From a virus, in the IMG/VR virus record IMGVR_UViG_3300023079_000001, positions 1 to 43,386 of that record: a DNA stretch of 43,386 nucleotides, one strand, 5' to 3'. The notes beneath the pieces were generated by a model. That model saw only the letters and a list, made by a program, of their open reading frames with translations. It did not search any database and was not told where the DNA came from. A program made the position numbers and the translations under genes. Positions 2,032 through 43,379 of this stretch are shown here, one piece after another; positions within the stretch are counted from its first letter, which is position 1; each line of letters starts with the position of its first letter.

Positions 2032-2268
2032 ATGAATTTTGGTTACGCACTTTCTGAACTAAAAAAAGGTTCTTTTGTTTGCAGAAAAGGCTGGAATGGG
2101 AAAGGATTGTGGCTAACTTTGCAAGTTCCTGATCAACACAGCAAAATGACACTTCCCTATATCTACTTGAATTATCCAAAAGACGCAGCAAATACTCCAG
2201 GAGCAAGAGTTCCTTGGACACCAAGTCAGACAGATTTATTGGCTGATGATTGGGAAGTTGTTGTATGA
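2032..2268 (+). CDS. tad2: Tad2-like anti-Thoeris protein (DUF2829)
   Basis: The 78-aa protein has the DUF2829 pattern. It opens with NFGYALSELKKG, has the basic-aromatic motif RKGWNGKGLWL (about residues 20-30), a central beta strand ending IYLN, and the conserved C-terminal WTPSQTDLLADDWEVV. Members of this family (Thoeris anti-defense 2) bind and sequester the cyclic-ADP-ribose signal made by Thoeris ThsB, so that the effector is not triggered; some homologues also bind other nucleotide signals. That it does so here is inferred from family membership. GGAG precedes the ATG. Its TGA overlaps the ATG of the large terminase (ATGA), so the two are translationally coupled and expressed late, an unexpected setting for a defence inhibitor. 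Confidence 0.85.
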   Translation: MNFGYALSELKKGSFVCRKGWNGKGLWLTLQVPDQHSKMTLPYIYLNYPKDAANTPGARVPWTPSQTDLLADDWEVVV

Positions 2269-3749
2269 GCAGTGAAGAGATACTAGTTGACAGTTCGAGT
2301 GCGGCAGCAACAGCTAAGGCAGATTTCAACTATCTTGCAGGTCTGGCATTAGCAGGAGAGTTTCTGTTCGCATTCCCGAAATGGTATCTAGTTCTCTTCT
2401 CTCTTCTCACACAATTCAAGAATCGAGTAGAACGTTTCGCAATCGGACTTCCTCGTGGATTTGCCAAGACAACATTCATCAAGATCCTCTGTCTTTGGTA
2501 CATCTTATTCAGCCACAAAACATTTATCCTAGTGGTGAGCGCAAGTGAAAAGAAGGCAACCAGTATTCTGTCAGATTTGGAAGACATGCTCAGTTCTCCA
2601 AATATTAGAAGACTTTTTGGCCATTGGGACTCCGCGCTCGAAGAGAACAACAACACAACAAAAGTATTCTATTTTCGAGGAAGAACAATCGTACTGTGGG
2701 CAGCAGGCGCAGGAACCAGTGTTCGAGGAATCAATAGAAAGAATCAAAGACCCGATGTAATATTGATGGATGATATCCAGGACAAGGAAGATGCCAAGAA
2801 CAAGGAAATGGCAGACGATTTGTTGGTCTGGATGTTGGGCACACTGATGAAAGCACGCAGCCCGTTCGGTTGCATTTTCATTTTCGTCGGGAATATGTAC
2901 CCACAGAATTCTATTCTCGAGAAACTCAAGAACAATTCCCAATGGGTGTCTCTTATTGTTGGTGGGATTCTAGCAGATGGAACTAGTCTCTGGGAAAGTC
3001 TGAGGCCAGTTGAGGAACTCCTGGAAGAATACCAATCTGACACAGAAATGGGACACCCAGAAGTCTTTATTTCTGAAGTTCTGAATTCAACTGACATTGC
3101 ACTCGCATCTGGCATTGATATTTCCAAGATTCCTACACTGCCCTCTTATTTTAAAGAGATCTTAGACGAAGATCAGAATGCAGGGGAAGCAAGTTTCATC
3201 CTAATTGACCCAAGCGGTGCAAAGAAGAAAAGTGACGACTGTACAATAAATCATTTTGAGGTACTCGATGGCAAACCTATTTTCGATGAACTCGTTTCTG
3301 GTGTCTTTACGCCCACTGAAACCATCAAACTCACGATTGATCTCGCGATACGTAGAAACACAAGGCTCATCTGCGTTGAAGATGTTGCTTACCAAAGCAC
3401 TCTCCTTCACCACTTCGAACAGTACTGCGAGCGTGAAGGAATTACTGGATTTTTCTTCCAGCCGGTTTCCCCCAGAGGACAGGCAAAGAATAATAGGATT
3501 AAGCGAGGAGTTGTAAAGATCATTGCAGGAGAAATTTATCTCCATCCTAAAGTCCGCTCAATTGTAGTGAGTCAATATATTGGATGGAATCCTCTCAAAA
3601 CAACTAATGTGGATGACGTAATTGATCCCATTGGATATGTAGAGGAAGTCTTGCAGGTTTATCCAGATCTTGCAGGCCGACAAATTCTAGAATTCAGAGC
3701 GTCAGAAACTAAAGCATCACACTCAGAAGATCTTCCCCTTCCCTGGTAG
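2265..3749 (+). CDS. terL: Terminase large subunit
   Basis: ATP-driven motor and nuclease that packages DNA into the prohead (494 aa). The N-terminal ATPase has a Walker A-like GLPRGFAKTT (61-70) and a Walker B VILMDD (165-170). The C-terminal RNase H-like nuclease shows an ILIDPSG strand with D315 and a later acidic pair in CVED (E372, D373). The start is the ATG at 2265, which overlaps the stop of the tad2-like gene; an in-frame TTG at 2250 would lie inside that gene. The packaging strategy (headful or other) cannot be assigned by eye; a phylogeny of TerL would help decide it. Confidence 0.95.
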   Translation: MSSEEILVDSSSAAATAKADFNYLAGLALAGEFLFAFPKWYLVLFSLLTQFKNRVERFAIGLPRGFAKTTFIKILCLWYILFSHKTFILVVSASEKKATSILSDLEDMLSSPNIRRLFGHWDSALEENNNTTKVFYFRGRTIVLWAAGAGTSVRGINRKNQRPDVILMDDIQDKEDAKNKEMADDLLVWMLGTLMKARSPFGCIFIFVGNMYPQNSILEKLKNNSQWVSLIVGGILADGTSLWESLRPVEELLEEYQSDTEMGHPEVFISEVLNSTDIALASGIDISKIPTLPSYFKEILDEDQNAGEASFILIDPSGAKKKSDDCTINHFEVLDGKPIFDELVSGVFTPTETIKLTIDLAIRRNTRLICVEDVAYQSTLLHHFEQYCEREGITGFFFQPVSPRGQAKNNRIKRGVVKIIAGEIYLHPKVRSIVVSQYIGWNPLKTTNVDDVIDPIGYVEEVLQVYPDLAGRQILEFRASETKASHSEDLPLPW

Positions 3750-3782: not shown

Positions 3783-5729
3783 ATGGCAACAACATCAGCA
3801 TTCACTAGAACTCTGACAATTGATCAGAGGAAACATCTTTTGGATTATGCAAAGATTTGTGCCGGACAATCAAGCGAATTGGGAACATTTAGACAGTTGC
3901 TAACTTATCGGGATCGTGCCTATCAAAGTCAGCTGAATATGACGGCCGAACACTTGAAGGCAATCCGCGCAAACATGCTAGGAGATGCCAGAAAAATTCG
4001 GGATCTGACAGTTCCAATTGTGATGCCGCAAATAGAAAGTGCAGTAGCTTACCAAGCAGGAGTCTATCTTTCTTCCTGGCCAATTTTTCCAGTTGTTTCC
4101 TCCCCGCAGAATCAACCAATTGTAGACCAGTTCCAAACAGTAATGAACAATCATGCAATACAGTATGGTTGGACGCGCGAGATGATTAAATGGTTTCGTG
4201 ACGGATTCAAATATAATTGGGGTGCAGCTTTCGTACACTGGAAAAAGACCAGCGTGACTCGAATCACAACAAGTACAGATGTTTCCACTGCTGGTCAAGC
4301 AAAGGTGAATCAACTTACTTACGGTGGAAACTGCATCACACGAATTGATCCCTACAATTGTTTCATGGACATGCGAGTAGAGCCAGCCAAACATCATGAA
4401 GAAGGAGAATTCTTCGGCTGGAATGTTCTAATGAATCGCATGGCATTCCGTCGTTTTGTAGAAGGCCTCGACAAGACGCGGACAACAAATCTGAATGAAG
4501 CAATTAATTCTGGCTACATGGGAACCAGTTTTGGTGACTCATCGAATCCGCAAGATTTTTACATTCCACCAGTTAATCAACTCCTTGACATTAATCGTCT
4601 CGCATTATCTGGTAAAAACTGGCTGGCTTGGGCAGGGATAGAGCGTCAAGGTGGCGCAAACGAAGTAAATTACAAGAACCAATATGTAGTAACTCCTTTC
4701 TTATGCCGCGCTATGCCGGCAGATTTCGGTGCGATCGGAAAGCAGCCCACGATTTATTTCTGCTACATCGTAAATTGGCAGTATATTGTCTACGTCGAAG
4801 AAATGGTGACAGCAAATGATTATCTTCCGGTTTTTATTACCCAGCCATACGAAGACGGACTCGGATATCAAACAAAATCGCTCCTTGACAATGCTCTTCC
4901 ATTCCAAGACATGTCCTCTGCGCTATGGAATATATCTCTGGAAAGCCAGCGTCGTAAAGTCTTTGACCGTCTCATTTACAACGAGCGCTTCATCGACAAA
5001 AAAGATATCGACCCTGTATCCGCTGTTGCACGTATTCCGTTGAGAAATGCTGCAATGTTTAAGGGCGATGACATAGGGAAGGCAATCTATCAAATTCCAT
5101 ACCGAGAAGACAATCTCCAAGCATCCCTCCAAATGAGTGAGATGGTTTCTCAAATGGCAGATGTTTCTTCAGGCCAGAACAAAGTTCAGCGTGGACAATT
5201 CCAGCCAGGAAATAAATCTGTCACGGAATTTGAGCAGACAATGGATGGCAGTAATTCCCGTCAACAACTCACTAGCATGTCAATTGAGCACCAGTCAATT
5301 ACTCCGTTGAAGGAAACTCTCAAAGCAAACATGCTGCTGAATCAGACTTCCGGAGAAATGCTGGATCGCGAGAATAAGCAACTAGTCAAGATAGATCCAG
5401 TGCAACTCCGCGACACAATGATGGAGTTCAAACTTACTGATGGACTCCTGCCAATTGAGAAGTTGATGAATCCTCAGTTGCTCATGGTGTTCTTGCAAAC
5501 TGCTCAAGCAATGCCAGTTGTAATGGGAGAATACGATATCATGGGGATGTTTATCTACTGGATGAAATTGAAAGGAGCATGGTGGTTGGAAGATTTCAAA
5601 CGTACACCAGAACAACAGCAACAATTCACTCAGATGTTGCAGCAAACAAGTGCAGCTCAGAATGCTGTGCCGCCAGAACAAAATCCTGCATTAGCTGCCC
5701 TACCACAAGGACAAACAGCACTTCAGTAA
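3783..5729 (+). CDS. Portal (connector) protein
   Basis: The 648-aa protein directly follows terL, and its size and sequence style fit podovirus portal proteins. An early region (VPIVMPQIESAVAYQAGVYL) resembles the clip/wing start of such proteins, and the C-terminal tail is glutamine-rich (PEQQQQFTQMLQQ). It should form the dodecameric ring at one capsid vertex, through which DNA enters and to which the adaptor binds. AGGA upstream of the ATG serves as ribosome-binding site. The assignment rests on gene order plus overall family resemblance rather than on catalytic motifs. Confidence 0.85.
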   Translation: MATTSAFTRTLTIDQRKHLLDYAKICAGQSSELGTFRQLLTYRDRAYQSQLNMTAEHLKAIRANMLGDARKIRDLTVPIVMPQIESAVAYQAGVYLSSWPIFPVVSSPQNQPIVDQFQTVMNNHAIQYGWTREMIKWFRDGFKYNWGAAFVHWKKTSVTRITTSTDVSTAGQAKVNQLTYGGNCITRIDPYNCFMDMRVEPAKHHEEGEFFGWNVLMNRMAFRRFVEGLDKTRTTNLNEAINSGYMGTSFGDSSNPQDFYIPPVNQLLDINRLALSGKNWLAWAGIERQGGANEVNYKNQYVVTPFLCRAMPADFGAIGKQPTIYFCYIVNWQYIVYVEEMVTANDYLPVFITQPYEDGLGYQTKSLLDNALPFQDMSSALWNISLESQRRKVFDRLIYNERFIDKKDIDPVSAVARIPLRNAAMFKGDDIGKAIYQIPYREDNLQASLQMSEMVSQMADVSSGQNKVQRGQFQPGNKSVTEFEQTMDGSNSRQQLTSMSIEHQSITPLKETLKANMLLNQTSGEMLDRENKQLVKIDPVQLRDTMMEFKLTDGLLPIEKLMNPQLLMVFLQTAQAMPVVMGEYDIMGMFIYWMKLKGAWWLEDFKRTPEQQQQFTQMLQQTSAAQNAVPPEQNPALAALPQGQTALQ

Positions 5730-6971: not shown

Positions 6972-8174
6972 ATGTCTGTTGGACTTCTTTCTACAGCAAA
7001 TCTCCCCGCAAATCTGGCGAAGTTGTCATTCAGTGCGCTGATTACAAGACTGATGCCAAATGGACAAGCACCACTGTTTGGTTTGACTGCACTCTTGAAA
7101 GATGAGACTGCATCAAACATCGAACATGGTTACTTTTCCAAGACGATGATTTTCCCAGAAGCTCTGCTAACTGCCGCAGTAGCTGATGGAGTTGCAACTG
7201 CACTAACTGTCGCATCAACTCAAGATCTAGTAGTTGGCGATATGTTGCGTGCAGATACTACTGGCGAAGTGATGCTAATTACTTCCGTAACCAGTGCAAC
7301 AGTTCTGGCAGTTCAGCGTGGAGTAGGAACAATTGCAGCCGGGGCAATCGCATCAGGAGTTCACCTCTACACAATCGGTAATGCATTTGAAGAAGGTTCT
7401 GTTCGTCCGAATGCAGTAAGTATCATGGCAGTTCGCTATGTTAACTTCACGCAAATCTTCCGGAATTCTTGGGCAGTGACAAAGACTTTGGCAGCAATGC
7501 CGATGATTGCAGGTGATGGCCTAGTTGCAGAATCCCGCAGCGACTGCGCATCTTTGCACGCACTGGCAATTGAGAAGTCTTTGTTCTTTGGTCAGAAATT
7601 CATGGGAACTCGGAATGGTTATCCGTTCCACACCCAAGAAGGAATCATTGCTCGCGTAACTGCGAGTGCGCCATCGAACATTACAACTTTGCTGGCGACC
7701 ACAAACTGGACTCAGTTGCAAGCCGCGCTAGATTTGACACTGAATACAGTGACAGATGTTAAGAGCGGAAATATCCGGACAATGTTTGTTGGTGGCACAG
7801 CTCGCATTGTGATCCACAACATTGCACGATTGAATTCAACTTACCAGATTGCAGGAACAGATACTTCTTGGGGTTTGCAGATTGATCAACTGCGTACTCC
7901 CCGTGGAACTTTCGAAATGATTGAGCATTCTTTGTTCAATGCATACGGAAGTGGTAGTTCCTGGTCGAAGATGGCAGTGATCGTGGATTTGAATGCCTAC
8001 TCTTTGGCATATCTCCGTAGGACAGAAGATCTGGAATTCAATGCAAATGGCACGCCAGTAGATAATGGAATTGATGCTCGTGGTGGAACTCTGACAACAG
8101 AACTCACGAGCTTGATCAAGAATCCAGCAGCATTCGGAATCATCTACAATTTCACAGCTGCCTCGGTGGGTTAA
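6972..8174 (+). CDS. Major capsid protein (SU10/DUF5309-like)
   Basis: The 400-aa protein resembles the SU10-type HK97-fold major capsid family. It has an N-terminal arm, then a small beta-rich inserted domain (about residues 67-135, with DLVVGDMLRADTTGEVMLI), then the segment NAFEEGSVRP and the core. It forms the icosahedral shell. GAGGA precedes the ATG by a good spacing. It is followed immediately by an intrinsic terminator (8196-8235), as expected for a gene whose mRNA must be made in excess of the genes downstream. Confidence 0.88.
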   Translation: MSVGLLSTANLPANLAKLSFSALITRLMPNGQAPLFGLTALLKDETASNIEHGYFSKTMIFPEALLTAAVADGVATALTVASTQDLVVGDMLRADTTGEVMLITSVTSATVLAVQRGVGTIAAGAIASGVHLYTIGNAFEEGSVRPNAVSIMAVRYVNFTQIFRNSWAVTKTLAAMPMIAGDGLVAESRSDCASLHALAIEKSLFFGQKFMGTRNGYPFHTQEGIIARVTASAPSNITTLLATTNWTQLQAALDLTLNTVTDVKSGNIRTMFVGGTARIVIHNIARLNSTYQIAGTDTSWGLQIDQLRTPRGTFEMIEHSLFNAYGSGSSWSKMAVIVDLNAYSLAYLRRTEDLEFNANGTPVDNGIDARGGTLTTELTSLIKNPAAFGIIYNFTAASVG

Positions 8175-19696: not shown

Positions 19697-22600
19697 ATGG
19701 CTGACAATGCATATGTTACCCCTTCCCTGCTTGGCTCAGATACTGTGGATATGCAAGCTGGAATCTTTTCTCGCTTGGGTGACGCAGCAACTAAAGGAGT
19801 TTATGGTGCAGCTGTTTCTGGGGGACTTAGCATTGTCAACACATTCTTGGATTACACAGGACAGGAAGCAATTGATACTGCCAAAACAATTCGAGACTTC
19901 GATGAAGATTACGGGAACTATTACGAAGAGAATAAAGACATCATCGACCTCGGTGGATTTGTTGCAACTAGCATTGTTCCTGGAATGCTTGGCGTTAAGG
20001 CATTGAAACTTGCAAGAACAGGTGAAGCTCTTGGTCCTATTTCACGTGCATTGAACTTTGCAGCCACGCCAGCACAGCGGAATCTTGCAAAGGGATTGGA
20101 AGCTCTTGGTAGATCTGGCGGCACACTAACTGCTGAAGTTCAATCTGCTAAGCGTGCAAGACTTGCTTGGGAAACAGCAGATCAAGTACTAGTTAGTGCT
20201 GCTACAGAACTTGGTGTTCTGGCGATGATGAATGATTCACCAATCTTTGAGAATGATACTGCAGCCGACTTTGTCAAGAACATCGTAATCGGTTCTGTAT
20301 TTGGTGGAGCGATTGGTGGAGTTTTCTCTGCATTTGAAACTCGTGGAATTATGAAGGCAGCCGGCCGACAAATTGAAGCAGGCCAGAGAACCTTTGATGT
20401 TGTGTCAGATCCTGCAAAGTATGGCCTCAAGAAGGCAGATGAAATTCTCACCTTCACAGAGAACTTGTTGAAACTTCCCGACAATTTCTACGACATTAAC
20501 TTCAGCTACAAACTTGGTAAAAAGACACACTATCAAGGTCTTCCAACTTCTGAAGCATTCAAGAAGTCCCGGACTGGTGCAGAGAAACTTGCAACTGAGC
20601 AAGCGAAGATAAAGTTTAATGAGCTTGCACAAGGCGCAGAGAATACTGGCAATGCAATGTTTGAATTCATTGCGAAGAAGATGCAAGAAGGTCGTGAAGC
20701 TGGACACTCCGCAGAAACAATTGCAGACACAATTGGTGGATACTTGCAAGGAGTCAAGAGTATTTCTAGCTTGGATTTTGAGTCTGCATCTGTAGAAGCT
20801 CCGAAACAATTCTTCGTCAACTTGAAGCCGAAACATTTGGGAGATATGTTCTCTGATGTTCGTGGAACTAGCACAGGTAAGAAAGCCTACTACCTAACTA
20901 CTACTGACCCACGCCAAATTAAATCAGGAAGCATGGAGCGTCTTGGATATGGTAGTGTTGGTGAAGCATTCGAAGATGGATATGATATGGTCTACAATAA
21001 GGCCGGATTTGTTTCCATCAATCCTAAGTCTAAGGTGATCAAGAATACACCAGACATGGCACTGAAGAATGATTTCTACATGGATCTGGAAACTGGCTCA
21101 CTTACTCCAGACATTGTTCTGACTGGTGGAGACATCCTAAAGAAAGCTGGAGACTTCAAGGCCTTCAAAGATTCTGTTACTGTCTCAGGAAAACATTTCT
21201 CTCAGGTAGCAAGCAAGAGTTTGGATTTGAATGGCTCTGCACTTGAAGCAAGTACTAGATTTATGTGGGCAAGTAGTGACGCATTAACTGATGCAAGTTT
21301 CAAGAAGATGACAATTGAGTGGAATGATTTCCCTCTTCTCGACCGGGCAAAAGGAATTGCAGAATTGGCATTGGATAGTGACACTGCAATCAGAATGCCC
21401 GACGGAAGTTTGCAAAAGTTCATTGACCTTGTAAATATTCCAGAGTTTGTGAATGAATTAAAACTTCAAGCTCTCCGTGATCAACTAGATACAGGACCAC
21501 AGAAGTGGCATGATGTTCGCCACATTCAAGCACATCTTAATGTGTCAAGAGAGTGGTTTGAAACTGGAGTAGCAAATAATTTCGCAGTAGTTCCTGAGCA
21601 GCTGAAAGAAGCCAGAAGTCTCTCAACGTATTTCAAACCACAGACTGTGAAAATGCAATGGGATTCTGAAGCAATGCAAGTTGCTCGCCCAGATGCAGGA
21701 TTTGTCGGGCCTGCACATCTGAGCAACTACACATTAGGTCACCATTACCAACTGCAAACAAACAAGAGGACGGAACTGAATGCTTTTGAATCTGCATTTG
21801 GTGAAGATGCCAAAAGATTCCAAGAAGCAGATGATGCATTAATTGGTGGAGTTCGCAGTACTGGATCTGGTGCTGGTGAAGTCACAGCTAGTAATGCAGA
21901 TTACGGTGATCGTACTGGATTGTTTGTACAAGATACTGGTAAAGCAACTTCCCTCACCCAGCAGAAATGGAGGGATGCAGACATTAAAGCATTGTCTCCA
22001 CACATCAATGCAATACGAGATAGCAAAGAAGCTGCTGCTGAACTTGGAATTCTTACTACGGCACTGAGAAGGGATCCTGCAAAGTATTATCTAGATCATT
22101 CTGGAGATACAGCCAGACTTGTAGATCGGGAAGCCTACAAACTTCTTGAGAAACATCCAAATGATTTCCAGGATCTGGATGCTGCAATTCTCCATCTTCA
22201 GGATGGTGGAAAGAAAGGCAGCTACGCAATCCAGAACATTGAAGTAGGAGATTTCTTCCAGGCATCACGAGACATTAATAAGGTGCGTCTGAATAAGATG
22301 ACCACACTTACTAATGCACTCGGTCTTGGTAGAACAATGGATGACATGGTTATCTATGCTCCACCAGTAGATACTAGGCGGTATCCTTTCTTTGCATTTG
22401 TGCGTGCGAAAGAAAAGATTGGCAATCACACAGATCTTTCCATGATTACGGCAAAGTCTTCTGATGAATTGCGCAGCCTTGCTAACCAAGTTGGTGACGA
22501 ATACGAAGTTATCTACAATGACCAGACAAAGAGATTCTTTGAAGCCAAGGGACAGTATGATTATTCTCTGGCGATCAACGAATCCAGAGTTAATTCAGAC

Positions 22601-24742
22601 TTGCAACGTCGTGGCATTCGTGGAGACTTCTTCCCAGAAACTCGTGCACAGAATGTTCTTGAGGACTATGTTCAGTGGCATGGAAATTCCAGTGACCACT
22701 TAGTTCGTACTGGTGTGCAAGTAAAGAACAGGCAACTTCTTGCAGATATAGATTTCCTATCTACACAGTACCGGAATGTAGAAACTAGCACAGTTAACGC
22801 TTCACAGCGACAAGCTAGTAAGATTGCAGATCCGTATGATGATTATCGGAAAACAATGCTGAATATCAGCAAGCAATCTGAGTATCCTATTCTAGACAAG
22901 TTGAATGAATTCACAGATAGCATTGCAAAGAAAATGTACAGTGCGCTGGACAGCGTGAGAAATGATGTATTTGAAAAGTCTGAAGAAGGATTTTCTAACC
23001 GGTTTGCTTCTCTAGAATACACCAACAAGTTGATGGCAGATGCAGGAATTGGTACAGAGTATCAAAGCATCGAACAGATTTTGCTGGCAAATGAACGCTA
23101 TCCTAAGAATGCAATTAAGGAAGCTGTTCAGAAAGTAAACTACTGGCTGGCCACTACAACTTTGCGGTTGGATTTGGCTAACTCAATTGTGAATATTATT
23201 TCCACACCAATTATGTTGGGCACTGAGTGGAGTAGTATTAAGCGACTGGTTGCAGATGACAGCGAACTCGCAGGAAAACTTCGTGAACTTACGCACGTGA
23301 AAGTTCCCGGCCAAGATCAAGCAGTTCCTTCGCTAACCAAAACAATCTATAACGCAAGTAAGGCTTTCTGGGGACCAGAGAAAGAAGCTCTCATTAAGAG
23401 ATTTACAGACAATGGAGATATCAAAGGGATTGCTTCTCTCTATCATGAAGTTCATGGTGATCTTGCCTATAGGCCTGGACAAGAAATAAGCAAGTTCAAA
23501 GCTCAGATTGACGCAGCAGTTGAGAAGGGATCCAAGATTACTGGCAATGATTTTGCTGAAGAATTCACACGATTTGTTTCTGCACATTCGATGCTGCAAT
23601 TAACTGATCCTCTTGTTGCAGCCGGCCGAATGACAATCAAAGAGCAGAACGCATACATTTCCAGTTTCGTCAATCGAGTCCAAGGAAACTACATTTACTC
23701 TCAGCGACCTGTAGCTTTCCAAGGAACTGTGGGTGCTGCAATCTCCCTATTCCAAACATATTCATTCAATGTTCTCCAACAACTTACAAGACATATGGAG
23801 AATGGAGACAAGAAAACTCTTGCAGTTTTCGGCGGGCTGCAAGGAATGATTTACGGGCTGAATGGTTTGCCAATGTTTGATGCTATCAATACCCATCTTA
23901 TTGGCTCACTCAGTAGCAATCCACAACATCGTGATGCATACTCAGAACTCACTGGAAAAGAACTTGGTGATTGGATGCTGTTTGGTACAGCTTCTGCATT
24001 CCCACTGTTTGGAAACAAGTCACCTGCCCTCTTCTCTCGTGGAGATATTAATCCACGGAATGTAGCTTTGCTTCCATTACTTCCTCAAGATGTTCCAGCT
24101 GTGCAGGCTTCCATTAAACTTGTCGGTTCCATTACTGGCTTTGCAAAACAAGTTGGCGGTGGAGCAGATGTTTCTACTAGTTTCTTGCAAGCTCTAGAAC
24201 ATCAAGGCTGGAGTCGACCACTTGCTGGATTTGCACAGTTGCTGGCTGGAGAAAGTACCACTAGTAAAGGATCACTCATCAGTGCTGCAAATGATTTGGA
24301 AACTACAACCTGGCTTTCTAGGATTCCAGATCGCTTAGTCAACTATGGTGGAGTTTCCCGTCTTATGGGTGCAAGACCAATGGACGAAGCAATCTCTCTG
24401 AATGCGATTAACAGAATCAAAGCATACGATGCACTTGATAGGCAACGGATTGAAGCTCTCGGTCAAGTAGTCAAGACGAAACTTGGAAACAATCAGATGC
24501 CAGATGATGAAGAACTCCACGGATTTATGCAATCCTATGTTAACTCTGGTGGCAGACAGGAAACATTCTCTTCTTCAATGCAGCGTTGGAGTCGTGATGC
24601 AAATGAATCTATTGTGAATCAACTGAGCAAGAAGATGGGAAGCCAGACTTCCAGACGGTATCAGGATCTTCTTGGTGGTGAACAGATGAGAGATTACACA
24701 AGTATGGGTGGAATGCCACCACTTGCTAGTGAAGCAGAATAA
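19697..24742 (+). CDS. Large internal virion / DNA ejection protein (1681 aa)
   Basis: By far the largest gene. Such giant proteins at the end of the podovirus late operon are ejected with the DNA and form the channel through the envelope (compare T7 gp16). There are hydrophobic glycine-rich stretches that could insert in membranes (for example SVFGGAIGGVFSAF near residue 200) and long helical regions. The C-terminal quarter has the segment NYIYSQRPVAFQGTVGAAIS, of a style seen in such proteins. No lytic transglycosylase or peptidase motif could be identified by eye. The gene ends 23 bases before the bidirectional terminator. Confidence 0.8.
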   Translation: MADNAYVTPSLLGSDTVDMQAGIFSRLGDAATKGVYGAAVSGGLSIVNTFLDYTGQEAIDTAKTIRDFDEDYGNYYEENKDIIDLGGFVATSIVPGMLGVKALKLARTGEALGPISRALNFAATPAQRNLAKGLEALGRSGGTLTAEVQSAKRARLAWETADQVLVSAATELGVLAMMNDSPIFENDTAADFVKNIVIGSVFGGAIGGVFSAFETRGIMKAAGRQIEAGQRTFDVVSDPAKYGLKKADEILTFTENLLKLPDNFYDINFSYKLGKKTHYQGLPTSEAFKKSRTGAEKLATEQAKIKFNELAQGAENTGNAMFEFIAKKMQEGREAGHSAETIADTIGGYLQGVKSISSLDFESASVEAPKQFFVNLKPKHLGDMFSDVRGTSTGKKAYYLTTTDPRQIKSGSMERLGYGSVGEAFEDGYDMVYNKAGFVSINPKSKVIKNTPDMALKNDFYMDLETGSLTPDIVLTGGDILKKAGDFKAFKDSVTVSGKHFSQVASKSLDLNGSALEASTRFMWASSDALTDASFKKMTIEWNDFPLLDRAKGIAELALDSDTAIRMPDGSLQKFIDLVNIPEFVNELKLQALRDQLDTGPQKWHDVRHIQAHLNVSREWFETGVANNFAVVPEQLKEARSLSTYFKPQTVKMQWDSEAMQVARPDAGFVGPAHLSNYTLGHHYQLQTNKRTELNAFESAFGEDAKRFQEADDALIGGVRSTGSGAGEVTASNADYGDRTGLFVQDTGKATSLTQQKWRDADIKALSPHINAIRDSKEAAAELGILTTALRRDPAKYYLDHSGDTARLVDREAYKLLEKHPNDFQDLDAAILHLQDGGKKGSYAIQNIEVGDFFQASRDINKVRLNKMTTLTNALGLGRTMDDMVIYAPPVDTRRYPFFAFVRAKEKIGNHTDLSMITAKSSDELRSLANQVGDEYEVIYNDQTKRFFEAKGQYDYSLAINESRVNSDLQRRGIRGDFFPETRAQNVLEDYVQWHGNSSDHLVRTGVQVKNRQLLADIDFLSTQYRNVETSTVNASQRQASKIADPYDDYRKTMLNISKQSEYPILDKLNEFTDSIAKKMYSALDSVRNDVFEKSEEGFSNRFASLEYTNKLMADAGIGTEYQSIEQILLANERYPKNAIKEAVQKVNYWLATTTLRLDLANSIVNIISTPIMLGTEWSSIKRLVADDSELAGKLRELTHVKVPGQDQAVPSLTKTIYNASKAFWGPEKEALIKRFTDNGDIKGIASLYHEVHGDLAYRPGQEISKFKAQIDAAVEKGSKITGNDFAEEFTRFVSAHSMLQLTDPLVAAGRMTIKEQNAYISSFVNRVQGNYIYSQRPVAFQGTVGAAISLFQTYSFNVLQQLTRHMENGDKKTLAVFGGLQGMIYGLNGLPMFDAINTHLIGSLSSNPQHRDAYSELTGKELGDWMLFGTASAFPLFGNKSPALFSRGDINPRNVALLPLLPQDVPAVQASIKLVGSITGFAKQVGGGADVSTSFLQALEHQGWSRPLAGFAQLLAGESTTSKGSLISAANDLETTTWLSRIPDRLVNYGGVSRLMGARPMDEAISLNAINRIKAYDALDRQRIEALGQVVKTKLGNNQMPDDEELHGFMQSYVNSGGRQETFSSSMQRWSRDANESIVNQLSKKMGSQTSRRYQDLLGGEQMRDYTSMGGMPPLASEAE

Positions 24743-24765: not shown

Positions 24766-24799
24766 GAAAAAGCCCCCATTACGGGGGCAATTTTTTTTT
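24766..24799. terminator. Bidirectional intrinsic terminator between late and early units
   Basis: GCCCCC (24772-24777), loop ATTAC, GGGGGC (24783-24788). On the plus strand AA and nine T follow (24791-24799). On the minus strand five T (complement of 24767-24771) follow. It ends both the late operon and the opposing replication operon, whose last stop codon (24798-24800) lies just inside the T-tract. Confidence 0.95.
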
Positions 24800-41434: not shown

Positions 41435-42160
41435 TCAGAGATTATCCAACCAAGTCTTTTTTGGCGGCTTGTTAAGTTCCTTCAATGCATTCTCAAAGAA
41501 TCGTTTAACTGAGTTGTTTAGATATGTAGTGTGTGAATCTGGAATGATATTCATTTTCAGTCCGTAATTCAGACGAGCTAGAATATCTGCATAGTAGTCA
41601 TTCACTATTTGCTTTCTAGACTTTACTGGCTGCTCTGGTTGCTCAGAAACGACTTCAACATTCCGTGTAGGTTCTACAGAGAATGTTGTTTGATTAGATC
41701 GAGAATAATCTACATCTTCAGGCAGATACTCTTGTTTTTGTTGTTCTTGCTGTTGTTCTTCTTTTAGTTGCTGTTGTCTCTTATATTCTTGAACAGCAGA
41801 AGATTCTTTCAACTTCTCAAGAAGTTCTCTACCTTCTTTGCTTCGTGGCTTACTCTCAGCCACTTCTTTTGTAATCTCAATGACTGCTTCATTGTGTGCA
41901 TATGCTGCACCAAATGGATTCTTCGGATCCCAATCATCTTCAGGATCATATCCGAATTCTGCAATTCTTTGCTGCTTGAGAATCTCTTTCATTTCAGAAT
42001 CTAATTCTTCTTGATCTTTAATCTCCAGAGTTTCGATTGGATTCCCGAAAGCATCCAGTTTATCTAGTCGGGTTTCTTGTTCTGTCTCTTCAATGATTGC
42101 CTCAGAATTGAGTTCTTCAATCATTTCAGTCATTTGATTCCCGTTTTTTGGTTTCTTCAT
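41435..42160 (-). CDS. First early protein: charged, Gln/Glu-rich (241 aa)
   Basis: Not recognised. Residues 1-150 are acidic and low-complexity with a Gln-rich helix (KRQQQLKEEQQQEQQKQEY). The last ~75 residues look folded (RKQIVNDYYADILARLNYG) and end NKPPKKTWLDNL. It is the gene next to the strongest promoter found, so it is probably made first after infection. Host takeover is a natural guess but has no direct support. Confidence 0.7.
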   Translation of the reverse strand: MKKPKNGNQMTEMIEELNSEAIIEETEQETRLDKLDAFGNPIETLEIKDQEELDSEMKEILKQQRIAEFGYDPEDDWDPKNPFGAAYAHNEAVIEITKEVAESKPRSKEGRELLEKLKESSAVQEYKRQQQLKEEQQQEQQKQEYLPEDVDYSRSNQTTFSVEPTRNVEVVSEQPEQPVKSRKQIVNDYYADILARLNYGLKMNIIPDSHTTYLNNSVKRFFENALKELNKPPKKTWLDNL

Positions 42161-42196
42161 TACAACTCCGTTAGGTTTATTAAGTGATGCAAAGAG

Positions 42197-42224
42197 AGTA
42201 TATCACAGGGTTATGCGGTGTCAA
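42197..42224 (-). promoter_or_regulatory. Main early promoter (sigma70 type)
   Basis: On the minus strand: perfect -35 TTGACA (42219-42224), a 16-bp spacer and -10 TATACT (42197-42202; five of six matches). Transcription would start near 42190, some 30 bases before the first early gene. The left arm of the quasi-palindrome begins 4 bases upstream of the -35 box, so regulation or replication could be linked to this promoter. Confidence 0.85.
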
Positions 42225-42227
42225 CCC

Positions 42228-42684
42228 CCCTACCCCTATTGTTGGGTACTACTCCCAAGATTCTAGACTACTACTACTCCCTCTACACACTGCATGCTTT
42301 CAAGTCTTGGTTTCCCTGTGTGTGTCAGACCCGTTAGATATTGTTAGATTCTATTCTGTCTCTCTAGTTCTCTATATTCTATGTGTTCTGTTTGTTGTTA
42401 TTGAGTAGATCAAATGTGCGTTCCTTTTTTTATACCCTCCTTTTAAATTTCAATGTATAAAAAATACAATATAAAATCTAAGAGGGGGATATAAAAACGG
42501 GGAAACAATAAGAGACTACTAGAGACTAAACAAATAGGATAGAAAGAATCTAGAGATAACAGATAGAGAGAAAGAATCTAGTAATAGGAACTAAGGGAAA
42601 ACACCAAAGGGGGAAACGTGAGCAAGCGATACGCATGTGCGCACAGGGAGTAGTAGTACCCAACAAATTGAGGGGTAGTAGGGT
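42228..42684. other. Large quasi-palindrome; candidate origin of replication
   Basis: Outer arms: TACCCCT (42231-42237) with AGGGGTA (42671-42677), then TTGTTGGGTACTAC (42239-42252) with its exact complement (42653-42666), and ACTCCC with GGGAGT. Inner arms TTTTTATACCCTCC (42427-42440) and GGGGGATATAAAAA (42484-42497) match at 12 of 14 positions. The centre (about 42440-42483) is almost all A/T. The plus strand is pyrimidine-rich to the left and purine-rich to the right. No gene lies here. An origin or packaging/termini region is the best guess. No DnaA box was seen. Confidence 0.6.
42541..42581. repeat. 13-bp direct repeats inside the quasi-palindrome
   Basis: AGAAAGAATCTAG occurs at 42541-42553 and 42569-42581, 28 bp apart. 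An extended form GATAGAAAGAATC (42538-42550) is also present in inverted orientation at 34891-34903, in the leader of the 218-aa early gene. The shared word may be a binding site for a phage protein or simply a purine-rich leader. Confidence 0.5.
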
Positions 42685-42767
42685 AGAGGTCAAGAATTGA
42701 GAATCCAGCAATTACACAAGAATGCACCCAAAACAGGATGCATGATTTGTGCAATCAATCCAGAATC

Positions 42768-43379
42768 TTACAAGTCAGCAAAACTCACCGTCTGAACAGA
42801 ATCTTTCTTCCCCATTTGCTCGAATCGGCGGATGATAAAGCTTCCCATTTCCGTATTCAAATCGTCCGATTCCATCTTGGCAATAATCTGGTCGCGGATT
42901 TCCTTCGGCAAGTGAGTAGGTTTGGCTGACAATTTCAAGATGTTATCCTTGTAGGCATTTGCTGCATTCTGATATGTGACATTAGATGCAAACTCAGAGC
43001 GGGAAACAATCCGATTCCATGTCCGACTGCCAGTAAAAGCAGTTTCCAGAGATTCTTTCGACATCCAGGAATCAGATTTAGATAGGAAAGATTCCACCAA
43101 TTGCGGGCGATCAAACAGATTCGAGCTAATCTGATAGTTATTAGGCTGATCGTTCACAAAGGATTTGAGAGTCTCTTCTGCACTCGCCATAAGGCAGGAT
43201 TCCACCAGAGCACGGAAAGACTCAGGAACTTCAGGAGCTTTCACACATTCCATGGGAATGCAAACAGATCGCTCTTTGCGTGATTGGTTAGCTGTTTGTT
43301 TCCACGATGCATTAATAGAGACTTCACCGACAGCTGCGATAGCAGCATTAATCGTGGAATGGATAGGAAAATAGGTCAT
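42768..43379 (-). CDS. Unknown protein (203 aa)
   Basis: Not recognised. Soluble and helical, with a Ser/Asn-rich middle; the C-terminal section (ESDDLNTEMGSFIIRRFEQM) is amphipathic. The ATG at 43377-43379 lies in the terminal repeat, so on the circular molecule the gene follows the 62-aa gene at 232-420 on the same strand. It ends at the edge of the quasi-palindrome region, and no terminator was clear after it. Confidence 0.75.
   Translation of the reverse strand: MTYFPIHSTINAAIAAVGEVSINASWKQTANQSRKERSVCIPMECVKAPEVPESFRALVESCLMASAEETLKSFVNDQPNNYQISSNLFDRPQLVESFLSKSDSWMSKESLETAFTGSRTWNRIVSRSEFASNVTYQNAANAYKDNILKLSAKPTHLPKEIRDQIIAKMESDDLNTEMGSFIIRRFEQMGKKDSVQTVSFADL

Follow-up and report, generated by a model that had tools for sequence, protein, structure and literature searches.

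Replication origins of the iteron type, as in lambda ori, R6K and pSC101, carry repeats of ~17–22 bp in one-sided arrays next to an AT-rich region. Shorter units are found in the contiguous tandem arrays near promoters that are formed by the 8-bp met boxes of MetJ and the 7-bp heptads of the omega protein of pSM19035. A mirrored layout is described for HSV OriS, where inverted sites for the origin-binding protein are arranged around an AT-rich spacer (PMC12543377). The element reported here lies in a window of 43,386 nucleotides, i.e. the whole stretch of viral DNA that was analysed. Like the iteron origins it combines short repeats with an adjoining AT-rich region, but its repeats measure 7–8 bp and occur on both sides, mirrored. 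Contiguous 7–8-bp tandem repeats are shared with the MetJ and omega parS arrays, whereas their mirrored placement about an AT-rich centre, mostly away from the promoter, is not. In an arrangement that recalls HSV OriS/OriL, the window and relatives have an AT-rich core and mirrored repeats, which may likewise serve as initiator sites. This resemblance is one of layout only, with no homology, and the element differs in that the arms are ~210 bp long, diverged, equipped with G-runs and 7–8-bp tandem arrays, and subject to turnover by lineage.

The window comprises a plus-strand podovirus-like module with terminase (2250–3749), portal (3783–5729), tail proteins and a 1681-aa structural-type protein. 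The replication module runs leftward and encodes DNA polymerase A, a primase, a Sak4-like protein, an exonuclease and a Dda-like helicase. The 1681-aa protein (19697–24742) is encoded at the end of the late operon, and its sole match is the uncharacterised phrog_16165. The terminase is near those of PaMx41, PaP2 and 119X (Fredfastierviridae, Jamesmcgillvirus), Polaromonas phage Tiera and EBPR podovirus 3. A scan of bacterial genomes returned only two metagenome-bin contigs as matches. The first and last 122 bases of the 43,386-base record are identical, which suggests a circular assembly, and hence that the element is not situated at a contig end.

Anatomy of the quasi-palindrome

The features of the element and its flanks are as follows (positions in the window).

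41435–42160, minus strand: gene that heads the leftward early operon and is not conserved in relatives
42161–42767, no strand: gene-free gap of 607 bp containing the element, from the open reading frame list, flanked by the genes at 41435–42160 (minus) and 42768–43379 (minus)
42197–42224, minus strand: predicted leftward sigma-70 promoter TTGACA-16-TATACT with extended −10 (TG), 11/12 consensus
42221–42256, minus strand: outer left block, outward GGGAGTAGTACCCAACAATAGGGGTAGGGGGGTTGA, with a 15-bp exact complement (42239–42253/42652–42666) and a 17-nt block at 82%
42247–42458, no strand: left arm (best local alignment), score 134–138 against at most 74 in shuffles
42262–42281, minus strand: GTAGTAGTA-type short repeats of the left arm, from the near-match count in the genome
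42427–42450, minus strand: left core motif, outward AAATTTAAAAGGAGGGTATAAAAA, a 24-nt inner arm with the same vocabulary in relatives
42443–42480, no strand: AT-rich centre, candidate unwinding site (central 120 bp 71% AT)
42464–42680, no strand: right arm of the quasi-palindrome, from local alignment and the blastn self-search
42474–42497, plus strand: right core motif, outward AAATCTAAGAGGGGGATATAAAAA, a 24-nt inner arm with the same vocabulary in relatives
42538–42586, plus strand: direct repeat GATAGAAAGAATCTAGAGATA / GAGAGAAAGAATCTAGTAATA in the purine-rich right arm, from a repeat search
42637–42687, plus strand: outer right block with GGGAGTAGTAGTACCCAACAA and AGGGGTAGTAGGG, from the outer arm complement and repeat count
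42722–42743, minus strand: terminator-like hairpin after the right-hand gene, with a poor U-run and not clearly above shuffles
42768–43379, minus strand: orphan 203-aa protein, conserved neighbour of the element, with homologues at 43 loci

Local alignment of the left half with the reverse complement of the right half gave a score of 134, compared to a mean of 51 and a maximum of 74 in 300 dinucleotide shuffles. The quasi-palindrome is real, and the description in the initial annotation of two diverged halves of an old palindrome is borne out, the shuffled-sequence control named there as a possible refutation scoring far lower: two mirror-image halves surround an AT-rich centre. The inner part without the outer arms scored 100 (shuffle maximum 66), and a blastn search of the genome with the region as query recovered the reverse complement with 67% identity over 318 bp (E 3e-7). 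In a scan of the whole circular genome the element is the top quasi-palindrome at 134–138, with the runner-up at 59–61. The outer exact complement noted earlier exists, albeit with a length of 15 bp rather than 14 (TTGTTGGGTACTACT at 42239–42253, AGTAGTACCCAACAA at 42652–42666), and the inner match of 12 out of 14 bases proved to be part of the 24-nt arms at 42427–42450 and 42474–42497, which are 83% complementary. The switch from pyrimidines to purines at the centre was likewise recovered, with a purine content of 34% in the left and 73% in the right half. The gap at 42161–42767 is the largest without genes, but not the sole one as had been claimed. A second large gap at 656–1128, where the minus-strand block meets the plus-strand late operon, is likely a late control region. 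Of the two minus-strand genes that flank the element, the left one begins on the side of the element and the right one terminates towards it.

From the centre outward, each arm passes from an AT-rich core word and a G-run with TATA, through a purine-rich middle with small repeats, to an outer block that contains GTAGTAGTA and CCCAACAA. The tandem repeats of the window are GTAGTAGTA-like and less clear than those in relatives. Six of the 15 near-matches of this type in the genome fall inside the element, and the only two exact matches are placed one per arm in opposite orientation. AGAATCTAG occurs in four copies genome-wide, two of them in the direct repeat at 42538–42586. The early promoter reported beside the element was found as TTGACA-16-TATACT with TG (42224–42197, minus strand). 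It scores 16.3, where the 99th percentile of the background is 12.5, sits just outside the left arm and is the predicted driver of the early operon. Separately, AGGRGGRTATAAAAA was considered as a common promoter motif elsewhere in the window and rejected, as its matches outside the element do not exceed chance.

As ssDNA, the whole 457 nt fold into one long imperfect hairpin (z −6.9). Such a fold and sub-threshold miRNA-like Rfam hits would speak for a large structured regulatory RNA, a function that the initial annotation had put forward. Any quasi-palindrome folds in this way, however. The Rfam search returned sub-threshold hairpin hits only, with no curated family at gathering score, and what is conserved is a DNA vocabulary whose words are mirrored outward (see below), so that no single transcript carries all of them in one sense. 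We regard a regulatory RNA as extremely improbable.

Recurrence and shared plan in related podophages

A terminase profile scan yielded 80 related loci, and quasi-palindromes are conspicuous upstream of the terminase in many of them. In a first set of shuffles among these relatives the centres had been selected for high score, and the fair test is the gene-anchored one. Here, loci were searched independently of any palindrome with profiles of the right-hand (orphan) gene. This search gave 43 loci, 28 of which hold the element side of the gene as judged by coordinates; in the rest the gene is at the contig end. The top-scoring quasi-palindrome is found no farther than 900 bp from the orphan gene in 23 of the 28 loci, compared to ~5 expected by area over all 43. 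The same element, for which the initial annotation had proposed to look in related phages, is in this sense present there. The exceptions to the top rank are L005, L050, L064, L101 and PaMx41. As several loci are close relatives (L040, L044, L046 and L026; L088 and L090), the number of independent cases is smaller than the locus count. Still, they include lineages with terminases 42–69% identical to that of the window, and 34% in the case of Tiera. In annotated phages, a DNA similarity search with the region gave no match, and none of the papers searched, a limited set, describes an element of this kind for these phages.

The element of PaMx41 is weak (score 55), and its close relative 119X scores 68. 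PaMx41, PaP2 and 119X carry this weaker form, with AGGTAGRTCA-like repeats, at L010:1–365 and 43290–43490, and their database records begin at the element centre. On the left-hand side, the first gene next to the element in L013 and L018 (L013:11224–11640) is related to Tiera_053, and its product resembles a SprT-type metalloprotease (HExxH motif by eye).

The coincident record starts, within ~six bases of each other at the region centre in PaP2 and 119X, are what could be expected of a packaging or genome-end site, be it pac, cos or the target of a protelomerase. Palindromic DNA in a phage genome able to be an episome is known from the N15-type telomere site, and protelomerases use a near-perfect palindrome. 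The arms of the present element are gapped, diverged and far from such near-perfection, and no protelomerase match was found in the proteins scanned. Moreover, the element is internal in the same-group records FBPa48, 20Aug470 and PaMx32, as it is in circular-type assemblies and in cultured relatives with records cut elsewhere. Genome ends at the element were judged unlikely, several PaMx41-type records having it in their interior, and the packaging or end-forming role suggested earlier is very improbable.

The orphan gene faces the element in eight loci and faces away in 20. Since symmetry is independent of the direction of this gene, a symmetric DNA site fits better than a leader RNA. The elements follow a common plan, which from the centre outward consists of an AT-rich core, a AAATTTAAAG-like word with a G5/C5 run (GGGGGTATA or ATACCCCC), a purine-rich middle and, often, 7–8-bp tandem repeats whose phase is the same in the two arms. 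Both orientations of the core, GGGGGTATA and ATACCCCC, occur. An AT-word with a G4/C4 core is present in 14/28 elements compared to 0.9% of background windows; the window's own core is a near match that the strict pattern of AT-word and G/C-run missed. G5/C5 runs amount to 4.2 per 300 bp in elements and 0.18 in background. Among outward words in 24 elements, GGGGTATA was counted 8 times (0.07 expected), TGTTACA 29 times (0.45) and AAACTAAT 11 times (0.41), figures that are descriptive because the three words were chosen from among all words. In L079, a 44-kb record, five of the six TGTTACA are inside the element, three on the minus strand on the left and two on the plus strand on the right, and in L090 the word is less confined (3/11 in the element). 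The repeat spacing is 7–9 bp in the 10 relatives analysed, and the phase is alike in both arms, as illustrated by 8,8,9,8,8 in L040 and 7,7 in L017. Near the element centre of L061 (5285–5330) there is a run of TAGTAGTAGGTAGTAGTAG; by sequence, this run and GTAGTAGTA in the window may recall DnaA-trio repeats.

The outward strands are purine-rich in 20/24 and 22/24 elements for the two arms. Together with the words common in outward orientation, this would be compatible with a divergent promoter and leader region, in which two similar purine-rich leaders run outward and carry, for example, antitermination sites like lambda nutL/nutR. In lambda, the control region with pL and pR is divergent and has similar sites, nutL and nutR, on either side. 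Here, by contrast, the promoter is outside the arm, so that the left arm is not the leader of the early promoter in the window, and the right-hand gene often faces the element, so that a rightward leader would serve no gene in the eight loci concerned. A consistent outward promoter at the centre was not found either, and this reading is unlikely.

Arm turnover and the orphan neighbour

Comparison of arms within and between phages gave median arm-to-arm scores of 84 and 36, respectively, where the value of 84 is inflated because centres were picked by score. High between-phage scores stem mostly from close relatives. Distant relatives have almost no common arm sequence, and yet the arms match within each phage; arm-to-arm likeness within a phage exceeds likeness between distant lineages. 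The initial annotation had made the element depend on conserved arms in close relatives; a lack of such conservation does not count against it, as arm sequence turns over by lineage and arm-to-arm symmetry stays. An example is L026, in which the first two repeat units read TTACT in both arms, as opposed to mostly TTACA in L040, L044 and L046.

For inverted repeats, homogenisation of arms and inversion of the spacer via template switching are documented (PMC8604942). Template switching would explain both the TTACT units in the two arms of L026 and the two core orientations. The same precedent, and the core in either orientation, would also suit a relic, i.e. an old inverted duplication whose arms are kept alike only by template-switch homogenisation and whose selected function is at most to host the early promoter. 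Neutral palindromes would be expected to be lost, however, and the three-zone plan and its words persist across the range of terminase identities given above, Tiera included. A mere relic appears decidedly unlikely.

The gene to the right of the element encodes the orphan protein, the conserved neighbour of the element. Its structure model (pLDDT 85) has a helical C-terminal part and a mostly acidic tail, and no DNA-binding fold. No match was found in Pfam, PHROG, or PDB sequences or folds. By tblastn, the protein of the window is absent from plasmids and annotated phages, and the member of the second subgroup in L088 is absent from annotated phages. The two groups of orphan proteins are remotely similar (hhalign E 3e-5, probability 74%); the structure model of the second subgroup was too poor for use. 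The protein is a candidate partner of the element, and as its model has no known fold, this link rests on gene position.

A candidate bidirectional replication origin

The element is situated at the base of the early operon, whose products include DNA polymerase A, primase, helicase and a Sak4-like protein. This position points to a bidirectional origin, as do the symmetry of the plan, the AT-rich centre, the mirrored arrangement of repeats, the lack of dependence on gene direction and the composition switch. We consider the element most likely the, or a, bidirectional DNA replication origin of this podophage clade, at a probability of roughly 0.5. Of the functions put forward in the initial annotation the origin is the best supported, and neither a packaging or end-forming site nor a regulatory RNA found support. 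A phage-encoded binding protein, possibly the orphan neighbour, would assemble on the short tandem repeats, in mirror image on each arm. The assembled protein would strain and open the AT-rich centre, aided by the G-run and TATA motifs of the core, and two divergent forks would be loaded and exit via the purine-rich leading-strand arms. The adjacent early promoter would link the site to early transcription. The mirror symmetry may be maintained by selection for a matched pair of arrays, and template switching between the inverted arms at replication may copy one arm onto the other while both drift.

Composition along the genome adds weak evidence, because gene strand and the element's own composition also produce skew. 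The cumulative purine skew of the window has its minimum at 42451 and its maximum at 24790, both confounded in this manner. With the element masked, the minimum shifts to the element edge in the window and in Tiera, and lies ~1.4 kb away in PaMx41. Cumulative GC skew alone, the check named in the initial annotation, places the minimum at 7229 in the window, away from the element, and whole-genome GC skew was discarded as an origin marker. DnaA boxes are sporadic, with at most two strict ones in a few elements and none in the window, and do not form a DnaA-type cluster. The repeat period of 7–9 bp and the lack of a Rep family match set the element apart from classical iterons. Among the genes scanned, a Dda/RecD-like SF1 helicase and a DUF3987 primase were seen, with no known initiator and no UL9-like match.

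The main rival to an origin is a control or partition site, in which the mirrored tandem repeats are cooperative arrays for a protein of the ribbon-helix-helix type and exert their effect on the early promoter from a distance or function as the centromere of an episomal carrier state. Contiguous 7–8-bp tandem repeats of the MetJ/omega type are indeed present, and their period is closer to ribbon-helix-helix arrays than to classical iterons. The strong early promoter adjoins the left arm on its outer side in the window, and about half of the relatives have one in a comparable position; in L022 the array ends ~13 bp from a promoter-like site. Furthermore, Shea, a cultured relative, apparently persists as an episome that is not integrated (PMC13348215). 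Against these observations, the array is ~100 to 190 bp upstream of the promoter in L040, L044, L026, L066 and L090. Only Tiera and L090 have a strong counterpart of this promoter on the right, and divergent-promoter regulation can therefore not explain the right arm. Scans with Pfam and PHROG found no ParA-like or ribbon-helix-helix protein among the genes scanned, many of the small ones being without assignment. Such an operator or partition site is a possibility to be reckoned with, if a rather small one. The apparently episomal state of Shea bears on the replication origin as well, since an episome should need an origin that works without integration.

A bolder version of the origin reading can be put forward tentatively. 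The element may represent a viral origin class not described before, tied to the orphan protein family, with mirrored arms that are rewritten jointly in each lineage by template switching and co-evolving bound repeats, and the element may at the same time serve to maintain an episomal carrier state. If the origin assignment is correct, it would provide a candidate origin and partner protein for little-studied podophages, including the Pseudomonas aeruginosa Jamesmcgillvirus that can be grown in the laboratory. The element would then be a natural case of a DNA element in which symmetry is conserved and sequence is not, and the concerted evolution of inverted repeats would become directly testable.
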